DNA of 64,000 nucleotides from Lachnospiraceae bacterium (GTDB lineage Bacteria; Bacillota; Clostridia; Lachnospirales; Lachnospiraceae). Under the pieces are notes generated by a model. The model saw only the letters and a program-made list of their open reading frames with translations, had not been told where the DNA came from and made no database searches. Below are positions 255 through 3,985 of the stretch, in pieces (the stretch's first letter is position 1; every line of letters begins with the position of its first letter). Position numbers and translations under genes: made by a program. Location: NCBI GenBank assembly GCA_015057325.1, contig SVEQ01000002.1:248001-312000 (forward strand), written 5' to 3'.

Positions 255-365
255 ACAATCTCCTCCTAATAAACATTTCCTATCTAATTATACAAATCAA
301 TAAACATCATTAGTATATCATTACATTATAGCTAATTCAAACATTTCGCAGAAATGTTTACACTA

Positions 366-397
366 AAAAAATCTGTCACCTACGTAACAGATTTTTT
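366..397. terminator. Hairpin terminator abutting CRISPR array
   Basis: Perfect 11-bp stem (AAAAAATCTGT / ACAGATTTTTT) with a 10-nt loop. The A-run on the left and T-run on the right make it plausible in both directions. The T-run ends at 397 and the first CRISPR repeat begins at 398, so it fits as the terminator of array transcription coming from the right. Confidence 0.75.
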
Positions 398-1170
398 GTG
401 TCAATGCCCTTACTCGGGCTTCTTCCATTTCTACCTCCTCGCTATTATGCATTGGAGCACCTGGATGGACAGTGTCAATGCCCTTACTCGGGCTTCTTCC
501 ATTTCTACACAAAACTAGCTTTATACATTATAGCAGGGTTTATTGTGTCAATGCCCTTACTCGGGCTTCTTCCATTTCTACGCATGATGCATATGATAAG
601 TTAATCGGAACATTATATGTGTCAATGCCCTTACTCGGGCTTCTTCCATTTCTACATGATATTTGAATCTAAATTTGAGGTAAGAAAAGAGGTGTCAATG
701 CCCTTACTCGGGCTTCTTCCATTTCTACAAGAGAAGAAGCCGGACAGACTCTACGTTAATACGGTGTCAATGCCCTTACTCGGGCTTCTTCCATTTCTAC
801 CTCTTGGCATTGATGATAATTACTATATTTATTATTTGTGTCAATGCCCTTACTCGGGCTTCTTCCATTTCTACGAAAAAGGAGGTAGATGTTATGAACA
901 CAGAGACAATGTGTCAATGCCCTTACTCGGGCTTCTTCCATTTCTACAGATTAATACAAAGATCTTTAGTATGATCTCAGATATGTGTCAATGCCCTTAC
1001 TCGGGCTTCTTCCATTTCTACCTCTTACTAAGAGAGAATTGAAAGTTATATCTAAGAATGTGTCAATGCCCTTACTCGGGCTTCTTCCATTTCTACGCTG
1101 AGAGAATGGCAGATGATCCTAAGCAGATGAAAAGTGTCAATGCCCTTACTCGGGCTTCTTCCATTTCTAC
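398..1170 (-). CRISPR. CRISPR array, 11 identical 37-bp repeats, 10 spacers
   Basis: Eleven repeats start at 398, 472, 545, 619, 692, 764, 838, 911, 985, 1060 and 1134. I found no difference between them. On the plus strand each begins gtgtcaatgccc and ends cttccatttctac. The ten spacers are 35-38 bp. Each repeat contains a GCCC / GGGC stem with a 6-nt loop. I place the array on the minus strand because a TTGATT-17-TATAAT promoter faces it from the right (1305-1333) and a terminator closes its left end. Read that way, the repeat runs GTAGAAATGG...GGGCATTGACAC, with the hairpin near the 3' end next to the spacer. This is the layout of type VI-A repeats, but type III cannot be excluded. No cas gene lies within the window. 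Confidence 0.97.
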
Positions 1171-1544
1171 CCTCGAACCCGCAAAGCCTTGATTTTACTA
1201 AGTACAATTCAGACACAATGCACATAATTGTCTGACAATTTAAATTTTCTGCTTTTTTGAGCTCATTTTTGGGGTTTTTACGAAAGACTATTAAATACTT
1301 GAATATTATACAACAATAACACAGAAAAATCAACATAACGCCTGTTGATTTGAACATATAAACACAAAAAAGATACTCTTGATGAGTATCCTTTCCCATC
1401 TAAAAGCAACGACCGAGCCGGCAGGCGAGAAGATCGAACTCTGTACGTCCCCTGAAACGTAGTAAAATCAAGGCTTTCAAGACTCTCTAATTCAAAATGA
1501 ACAACAAATGAACACAAATATTATAAAATGGACGATTAATCTCA
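1171..1544. other. CRISPR leader side and decayed junction sequence
   Basis: AT-rich 374-bp stretch with no convincing gene. It holds the leftward promoter at 1305-1333 and a small hairpin (TCAGACA / TGTCTGA) near 1211-1237. It also holds an 18-bp perfect inverted repeat: aaagccttgattttacta at 1183-1200 and its complement at 1460-1477. The segment TCGAACCCGC next to the last repeat equals part of the T-arm of the tRNA-Gly at 4666-4737. The end of the stretch (aatgaacaacaaatgaacaca) resembles sequence just downstream of the integrase remnant at about 4578-4600. Together these suggest leftover junctions of an integrated element. Confidence 0.5.
1305..1333 (-). promoter_or_regulatory. Promoter facing the CRISPR array
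   Basis: On the minus strand TTGATT (1333-1328) is separated by exactly 17 nt from a perfect TATAAT (1310-1305). Transcription would start near 1298, about 128 nt before the first repeat encountered, and run through the whole array to the terminator at 366-397. Nothing else lies in its path. Confidence 0.6.
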
Positions 1545-1888: not shown

Positions 1889-3985
1889 TTATTTAACTAC
1901 AGCCTTTACTCCGATATTCTTCTTTGTAAAGAACTTCTTATACTTCTTAATGTATTTCTTATTTTCTTTCTTTGAACCTACTTTAACTTTAACAATAAGC
2001 TTCTTAACTTTAAGTCCCTTAAATGCATTCTTAACAGACTGCTTTGTAAGCTTCTTTGACTTAATTGTTATTGTCTTTACGTTAGAACCCTTAAACGCCT
2101 CTGGTGCAAGTGTTGTTACATTCTTTCCTATTGTTACTGTTGTAGCAGAACTGTTTTTAAGAGCTTCGGCTGATACTTCTGTAACCTCATACTTCTTACC
2201 ATCAACAGTTACAGTATCAGGTATAGTAACGCTCTTTGCTTTTGTGTTAGCAACGGCAGTATATGTAACTGTATTAGTTGTTGATGTTTCTTCTGATGTA
2301 ACCTCAAAAGTACCCTTCTTTTCAACAGTGACTTATTTAACTTTTTCTACAACCGTAGGTGTCTGAGTCGTTGTAGGAGTGGTTTCAGTAGGCTTTTGCT
2401 CTACATGTGTTTCGGGTTTTGCTTTTCTTGTAATGGCAATCTCTACACTTTCAGTCTCATAATTTCCTTTATCCGTGCCATTATATACAGCAGTTGCAGT
2501 TACCTCTTTACCAACTTCAAGTGCCTTATCTTTATCTGCATCAGCCCATTTCCAATTTGTAGGAAGTTCTACCCCATAAACTGAAGCAACTGCATATTCT
2601 ACCGTCTTCGTCGCATCAGGTTTATTAGGTGCTACCAGCGCCTTATTAATTTTAACCTCACCTATATAAGTTGCTTCTTTATCCTTATAATTTGTATCGC
2701 CAACAACCTTGTACCACACATAATAGGTCTTAGCATTATTTAATTTAGGTATCGCTAGTGTAAATAAGTTATCTGCAGGAGCAGTGCTTGCATCTGTTCC
2801 AACAGCATAGTACAATGTTCCGTTCATTACAGAACCCGCTGTAACTAGTGCCTGTGCCGATCCACTATAAGTCAGATTGGCCTTTGCTGTAGGTACAGTA
2901 ACAGTTACATTCGCCTTTGCGATAGTATAACCCACAGAAGCCGTGCTATCCTTTACCGTAATCTCAGCAATGTAGTCACCTGCATTTGTCGGTGCACCAT
3001 CAAGTGCACTGCCGCCCTTTGTATATGTATTACCACTCTTCGTGGCTGCAAAATACTTAATGCTGTTTTCAGCTACCGACAACCCAGTAAATGTATTAAA
3101 ATCAGAAAGTCCGGTCAATGTTGCCGCTTTGGCTTGTCCGTCATATGTAAGACTCGTTGGAGCAACAAGAGTCAATGTAGCAGATGGATTACTATTTGCA
3201 CAAGCCTCGCTATCGCATCCAGCAGTGATTGTCGCACCATCGGATAGATAAGATACGTTGTGTTTATAAACAAACGAGCCTATAATGCTAGATCCACTAA
3301 CTGTATACCGATCCCCGTTAGGCATATCTAATATAATCTGCGAACTATTAAATTTTGACTTATCAAAATTGCAAGGTAGAATTATCGTTGCAAGATTATC
3401 ACAACCCCGAAATGCATAATCGCCTATACTTGTTACGCTTGATGGGATTGTTATGCTTGTCATTCCTTCACAACTATAAAATGCATATTTACCTATACTT
3501 GTTACGCTTGACGGGATTGTTATGCTTGTTATTCCTGTACAATCTTGAAATGCACAATCACCTATACTTGTTACGCTTGATGGGATTGTTATGCTTGTCA
3601 TTCCTTCACAACTATAAAATGCAAAATCACCTATACTTGTTACACTTGACGGTATTGTTATGCTTGACAATTTTTTACAACTATAAAATGCTTTATCACC
3701 TATACTTGTTACACCATCTTCAATAACAACGGATGTAATGTCAGGTCTATAGTTTGTCCATGGACTAGAACTATTCATCGCACCAGTTCCTGAAATTGTA
3801 AGGATTAAACTAGAACTTGATGATGTTAATTTCCATGTTACATTATCACCACAAGTTCCACTATGAATTATTGTTTCCGCCTTCACATCCGCACTCAATC
3901 CCGGCACAAACAGTAAGCTTCCAATCACGAAGACTACTGCTAACATTAATTTCTTAATACCGGTTCGCATATTATTTCGTTCCAT
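1889..3985 (-). pseudogene. BspA-type leucine-rich repeat surface protein, split by in-frame TAA
   Basis: Secreted LRR protein. A signal peptide (about residues 1-37, ending LSADVKAE) is followed by five LRR_5/BspA units of 23 residues (about residues 83-205, consensus SITIPSSVTSIGDxAFxxC). Next come beta-sandwich modules resembling surface MBG/Ig-like domains and a threonine/proline-rich linker. Residue 550 is followed by TAA at 2333-2335. The same frame then stays open for another 147 codons to TAA at 1889-1891. This downstream part encodes the basic C-terminal module usual for these proteins, including AFKGSNVKTITIKSKKLTK and ending KKNIGVKAVVK. The terminator follows the second stop. So a single nonsense codon, a sequencing error, or readthrough divides one gene. 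The start ATG (3983-3985) has GGAGG 6 nt upstream. Confidence 0.85.
3411..3716 (-). repeat. Tandem near-identical 69-bp LRR-coding units
   Basis: Inside the LRR gene, 69-bp units differ from each other by only a few bases, and long stretches such as gcttgatgggattgttatgc recur exactly. Near-identity at the DNA level, not just the protein level, indicates recent expansion or homogenisation of the repeats. Confidence 0.85.

Follow-up and report, generated by a model that had tools for sequence, protein, structure and literature searches.

A probable stand-alone type III-D CRISPR array and the coding-strand preference of its spacers in a Lachnospiraceae genome

The array, its leader and its direction of transcription

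The window, by which we mean the whole stretch of 64,000 nucleotides that was analysed, corresponds to positions 248001-312000 of contig C9 in a genome of 3.05 Mb that is 99.3% complete. At positions 398-1170 it carries a CRISPR array of 11 identical 37-nt repeats (GTAGAAATGGAAGAAGCCCGAGTAAGGGCATTGACAC) and 10 spacers of 35-38 nt, with the minus strand as the crRNA strand. The array of the original prediction is real, and the peptides quoted there are present on the plus strand. When up to three mismatches were allowed, the repeat had 22 matches in the genome, at five places that we read as four arrays: the window array, single arrays on C10 and C6, and a fourth that begins or ends on C20 and has its other part at the beginning of C6. 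This fourth seems to be one array split by a contig break. As the C20 and C6 ends carry the same sequence, one repeat among the 22 matches was probably counted twice. The repeat is present in two of 26 genomes of the genus, G006 among them. Several near-identical small-ORF units lie between two of the III-D arrays (L009 3200-4560), where the assembly has a short N run, and the window itself encodes, at 2333-3985, a leucine-rich-repeat protein of the BspA type whose repeat units are in tandem.

The leader lies to the right of the array, on the minus strand at 1171..1340, as found by an alignment of six leaders and a search for their core motif. Aligned were the leaders of the four III-D arrays of this genome, including the window array, and of two arrays of G006, which belongs to the same genus. 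The leader core, GTAAAATCAAGGCTTT, varies by at most one mismatch within the genome; at this threshold its remaining matches in the genome are the three other leaders and a single site on C14. The leader start is also repeated in inverted form over 21 bases, with arms at 1183-1203 and 1457-1477 that are 95% complementary. A promoter-like site on the minus strand of the leader (1305..1333; TTGATT, 17 nt, TATAAT) has 10 of 12 matches and points left, and TATAAT is common to the leaders of the window, C20/C6a and C6b arrays. Alone, this site is weak, as the promoter consensus scan gave 10 promoter-like sites against 6.5 expected.

At the distal end of the array, a terminator-type hairpin with a T run occupies 358..400 on the minus strand, with an RNA fold of -17.3 kcal/mol and a z of -6.66. 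The consensus scan did not list this hairpin, whose stem is AT-rich; a similar hairpin with a T run is found at the C6 array. The window repeats are all identical, and in the sister arrays degenerate end repeats mark the distal end in crRNA orientation. The sole exception is a leader-side repeat copy in L066 with 12 mismatches, which looks spurious. The leader on the right, the strong terminator hairpin on the left and the degenerate repeats of the sister arrays together indicate leftward transcription, as originally predicted; the crRNAs are hence minus-strand, and the plus strand gives the sequence of their targets. The repeat ends in ATTGACAC after a short GCCC/GGGC hairpin, which fits a predicted 8-nt crRNA handle derived from the 3′ end of the repeat. 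This sequence resembles the usual type III handle.

The CRISPR system behind the array

The C10 array is located downstream of III-D effector genes on the same strand, and its leader-proximal repeat is identical to the window repeat. The effector genes are ordered Cas10d, Csm3-like Cas7, Csx10-type Cas5, second Cas7, Csx19, TIGR03986 Cas7 and Csx20. About 7 kb upstream of Cas10, and separated from it by other genes, C10 also carries a Cas6 gene. Several of these gene calls rest on PADLOC models, with NCBIfam scores under the cut-off. Cas10d (L021:15540-17033) matched its PADLOC model with an E of 7e-120 and no NCBIfam model at E 1e-5; the Csx10-type Cas5 (L010:1644-3266) matched PADLOC Cas5_IIId with an E of 1e-54 and NCBIfam Csx10 with 84.6 bits, under the cut-off of 177.3; and Csx19 (L010:4509-4925) matched its PADLOC model with an E of 4e-31 and scored 29.3 bits in NCBIfam, under the cut-off of 35. 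All three Cas7/Csm3-like genes (L010:1036, 3263 and 4910) were called Cas7_IIId by PADLOC, and only the last exceeded the NCBIfam cut-off, as TIGR03986. The 742-aa Cas7 alone, used as a query against genome contigs, found no relative. The genome therefore holds Cas10d, a Csx10-type Cas5, several Cas7/Csm3-like proteins and Csx19 next to the repeat and leader of the window array.

The original prediction of an RNA-targeting system had named type VI or type III. The Cas13a model NF038188 had no match in this genome, and the same model does find the L115 protein. Since the window repeat and leader adjoin the III-D operon on C10 and the Cas13a model has no match, we assign the array to type III-D and not to type VI-A, so that only the type III half of the prediction is supported. 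It could be argued that the array is an orphan without a working effector, or that it serves a type VI system: by eye we saw no cas-like gene among ORFs of at least 100 aa over 8 kb on the left side or of at least 60 aa over 15 kb on the right side (two of these proteins were also scanned), and the repeats of a related VI-A system are similar (L115). We regard this as very improbable, however, given that an identical repeat and a shared leader adjoin III-D effectors and that Cas13a is not matched. Next to the C6 III-D array (L009 445-2441) are genes for a CARF protein, which would fit cyclic-oligoadenylate signalling, and for a protein of 442 aa that scored above cut-off for no family.

Strand preference of the spacers

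All ten window spacers had been read as possibly antisense to coding sequence, with frames open on the plus strand. Open frames proved uninformative, as 10/10 spacers are open on the plus strand and 10/10 on the minus strand, and the caution with which they had been offered was justified. The plus strand was also said to be purine-rich in most spacers; its purine content is above 0.5 in seven of the ten and at or below 0.5 in three. We therefore turn to a codon model trained on 412 long ORFs, in which each spacer's coding likelihood, as a sum over frames, is compared between the target strand and the crRNA strand. In this model 80% of true sense 36-mers are positive, and in the later comparison with control arrays 79% of true coding pieces. 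Nine of the ten window spacers are sense on the plus strand, with a log-ratio sum of 29.9 and a sign-flip p of 0.0017. The exception is spacer 2, one of those described as membrane helices, with a log ratio of -0.40. With a model trained without this genome, all ten are sense, compared with nine for the own-genome model. The III-D arrays of the genome taken together have 17/19 sense spacers, or 18/19 when the model is trained without this genome. The target strand of spacer 7 (875..910, crRNA on the minus strand) carries GGAGG and then ATG, i.e. a ribosome-binding site and a start codon. Spacer 10 (1097..1133, minus strand) is leader-proximal and presumably the newest; its target strand reads AERMADDPKQMK, with a log ratio of 5.81.

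To widen the sample, a Csx20 profile was used to find 45 loci in named records, and arrays of the same repeat family at these loci were joined with those of this genome and of G006. In a first count, 71 of 85 distinct spacers in the III-D repeat family were sense. After 16 spacers from the same genomes were added, the count was 84/101, similar to that of true coding DNA. The sense fraction q, estimated from a mixture with limits that treat the spacers as independent, was 0.96 (0.87-1.00). When 101 true sense pieces were drawn at random five times, q ranged from 0.86 to 0.99, so this estimate is unable to separate 0.9 from 1.0. DNA-targeting control arrays (I-C, I-B, II and V-A) from four of these genomes had 63/118 sense spacers and a q of 0.51 (0.39-0.63); their orientation rests on the repeat families to which they belong. 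Spacers with other repeats near Csx20, presumed to be type III, were sense in 36 of 58 cases (q 0.69). The III-D set differs from both the DNA-targeting and the other presumed type III sets, with likelihood-ratio statistics of 31.5 and 9.3. The consistent orientation that was originally claimed thus holds as a statistical strand preference, in the window as well as in the III-D family.

A second set was obtained by a pattern search of 397 genomes of the family, 12 of which had a match. Of its 47 new spacers 36 were sense, with a q of 0.85 (0.71-0.95); without the nine spacers from the already-used genome of L067 the figures were 28/38 and 0.85 (0.68-0.95). In the combined 148 III-D spacers, 120 were sense (123 with the model trained without this genome) and q was 0.91 (0.84-0.97). 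A bootstrap over the 23 genomes is the safer range and gave a sense fraction of 0.83-0.99, with a positive summed score in 19 of them. When seven spacers flanked by a repeat with at least seven mismatches were dropped, 81/94 were sense. Duplicate spacers were counted once and L051 was excluded, since L040/G006 is the identical contig; arrays already counted recur in L114 and in parts of L116, L122 and L152, and for G296, 11 were read among 25 repeats counted. Individual arrays vary. The III-D arrays L040 (1/3), L063 (2/4), L079 (2/4) and L161 (3/7) have no lean; single controls scatter, with I-C array L124 leaning strongly (16/20) and I-C array L117 the opposite way (16/42). In a related genome, a VI-A array, likewise of an RNA-targeting type, has no lean (2/6).

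Such a lean might reflect base composition only, that is, purine richness of one strand unrelated to coding. The target strands of the 85 III-D spacers do average 58.9% purine, and shuffled spacers still reach 64.7 of 180.5 log-ratio units. Nevertheless, these 85 spacers stand at a z of 4.71 over their shuffles, close to the mean of 5.37 for true sense pieces and far from the 0.23 for random strands. For the window alone the z is 2.78, where the range was 0.25 to 3.06 for ten sets of ten true sense pieces and -1.65 to 1.87 for ten sets of random strand; the strand signal of the window exceeds base composition. A Shine-Dalgarno sequence followed by ATG is likewise confined to one strand in the III-D sets: it occurs on the target strand of 5/85 spacers and the crRNA strand of 0/85 in the first set, and in the second on 3/47 (one of them a weak match) and 0/47. 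In the other presumed type III arrays it was found once on each strand (n = 58). The strand of these gene starts is what is informative: at the genomic rate of 3.7%, about 3 of the 85 spacers would carry one by chance where 5 do, and we claim no enrichment. An explanation by composition only is thus most unlikely.

Spacers 4 and 5, which occupy 656..763 on the minus strand with the repeat between them, have AAGAG in common at their ends. Joined at AAGAG, they form one plus-strand frame, which we read by hand as MIFESKFEVRKEKKPDRLYVNT. L055 has two pairs of neighbouring spacers with six bases in common. At least five common end bases were found in 3 of 76 neighbouring III-D pairs compared with 0.38 expected (permutation, P 0.005), and in 0/109 pairs of the DNA-targeting controls and 0/48 of the other presumed type III arrays. 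The second set had no such overlap in 35 pairs. We treat the overlap as a lead and not as a result; if real, it would mean that neighbours are drawn from one stretch of one strand. The overlapping pairs were also read as peptides of 22 and 23 aa. By tblastn these gave one match (E 5, in a longer GC-rich frame, rejected) and none, respectively, and neither matched PHROGs.

The sense calls are assignments from codon statistics, and searches of phages, plasmids, genus genomes and IMG/VR found no protospacers. Among the matches listed for the window array against phages and plasmids by blastn (40 of 136, 20 of 21 and 30 of 136 records), all had an E of 2 or worse. This search, which covered the window array out of an own-genome set with nine other spacers, had been proposed with the original prediction as a check of protospacer strand; the matches listed were at chance level. 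Four other III-D arrays searched against phages at an E limit of 0.5 gave one match, to a Helicobacter phage (E 0.2). The 26 genomes of the genus contained no credible protospacer. The best match outside an array, in G009 (E 0.004 per genome), is gapped and antisense to an ordinary gene, and matches in G018 (spacer 7, E 0.007) and G001 (E 0.012) fall in a stretch common to both, at an ATG without Shine-Dalgarno; all were judged to be chance. In IMG/VR each of eight patterns had 0 matches. They represented five window spacers (3, 5, 7, 9 and 10), one C10 spacer and two from other genomes, and allowed exact matches or third-base changes only, so that drifted targets escape.

Selection, directed acquisition and known systems

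Spacers that face the wrong way are of no use to a type III system, and what keeps them from accumulating is not settled. With about nine in ten spacers facing the right way, the newest included, this lineage is suited to separating directed acquisition from selection, and the codon-model test gives the targeting strand for arrays without known targets. The likeliest cause of the bias, we infer, is selection for spacers that match mRNA. The window array is transcribed leftward from its own leader, and the transcript would be processed by the Cas6 encoded on C10. The III-D complex would then bind invader mRNA through crRNAs antisense to the coding strand, an orientation indicated statistically. 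DNA copies of either strand could enter the array, and only crRNAs matching a transcript would protect the cell, so that nearly only those would be retained. Taken as a whole, a stand-alone, leftward III-D array with crRNAs antisense to coding strands, biased by selection at interference, is the reading in which we have good though not full confidence.

If useless spacers were purged slowly, the new ones should be less biased. Leader-proximal, i.e. newest, spacers were sense in 23/25 cases, and in another count in 31/37 compared with 92/111 for the rest. The newest spacers are thus equally biased, which counts against simple purging, although any spacer that became fixed may have come through selection by then. 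The same observation would suit a different explanation, in which a Cas1-Cas2 linked to a reverse transcriptase (RT) and primase-polymerase (PrimPol) copies RNA and integrates it in a set orientation, making spacers antisense from the start. Enzymes of these kinds prime and copy RNA, according to the available text of PMC10415136, and five sister genomes (L055, L063, L119, L122 and L123) have III-D loci with Cas1, Cas2, RT and primase-polymerase. There the RT is fused to PrimPol in four loci and to Cas2 in one, and never to Cas1. The shared ends of one-strand neighbours in the first set also point this way, as do the strand effects at uptake in an RT-free III-A system that are reported in a review (PMC9048733). 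Several features of the sister loci were observed in passing. In L063 (3408-6944) Cas2 is joined to the RT N-terminus and the primase-polymerase is split across two ORFs. CHKCI004 (L115 7557-15098 and L116) combines a III-D system that has Cas1, Cas2 and RT-PrimPol with a VI-A system that has an RT-Cas1 fusion and Cas13a, the two with similar repeats. In G423 the III-D-linked cas1 is broken by a TAG (L114 8161-9131), and by eye no RT was seen in 19 kb.

The genome of the window itself argues against directed acquisition. The only cas1 found there belongs to a type V-A locus on C17 (L014 14415-19886) that also encodes Cas4 and Cas12a; its Cas1 is of type V, and the adjoining array has six repeats of a different sequence. 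Neither RT nor PrimPol was found beside this cas1, and the two RTs in the genome have no cas neighbours among the ORFs read by eye; the spacers are sense-biased all the same. These RTs (L098 6441-8335 and L099 8059-8769, one adjoining a 331-aa partner gene) are retron- or defence-like by appearance only. Across genomes, RT-linked and not-RT-linked sets are alike, with 39/48 and 45/53 sense spacers (likelihood-ratio statistic 0.06); this genome was searched for RTs as a whole, and the others in which no RT was seen were judged on less than the whole sequence. Furthermore, the end overlap is gone in the second set. In the published text available to us, a Marinomonas III-B system acquires spacers in either orientation (PMC5576922), RT-active type III systems have no strand bias at the adaptation stage except in rRNA genes, and the bias in Thermus is put down to selection (both PMC9048733). 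On balance, these published data favour selection. Because the RT-linked set is no more biased and this genome lacks such a module, directed acquisition is a minority reading, which we hold to be unlikely. Rather doubtful, too, is its extension to the clostridial III-D lineage, in which RNA prespacers would be integrated in one orientation, sometimes as two adjoining pieces with 5-6 common end bases. If true, every new spacer would at once be a working antisense guide, unlike in the RT systems of the papers cited here, which take up both orientations.

The C10 operon has the gene set of type III-D (Cas10d, Csx10-like Cas5, a Cas7 series and Csx19), and its repeat and leader are common to the window array. 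In contrast to that arrangement, the window array is a solitary one on a different contig, and the one cas1 of the genome belongs to a type V-A locus. RNA targeting and a similar repeat hairpin are shared with type VI-A systems with RT-Cas1, as far as described in the available text of Toro et al. 2019 (PMC6753606), whereas the effector there is Cas13a, whose model is without a match here. Type III adaptation that is linked to an RT and a CAPP primase-polymerase (PMC10415136, PMC8211822; a III-D RT-Cas1 from Vibrio vulnificus is cited there) resembles the sister III-D loci in their Cas1, Cas2, RT and PrimPol. However, this module was not seen in the genome of the window, and the sister RTs are not fused to Cas1. 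In the literature searched on type III, Cas13 and strand bias we recognised no paper on strand bias in III-D, and the term III-D is absent from the available text of Vink et al. 2021 (PMC8482600). That text gives an average of 65% coding-strand spacers for type III arrays and 88% for a Moraxella III-B system. The lean is alike here, at about 0.91 (0.84-0.97) by codon model and without mapped protospacers, and looks like the known type III tendency in an unusually strong form.
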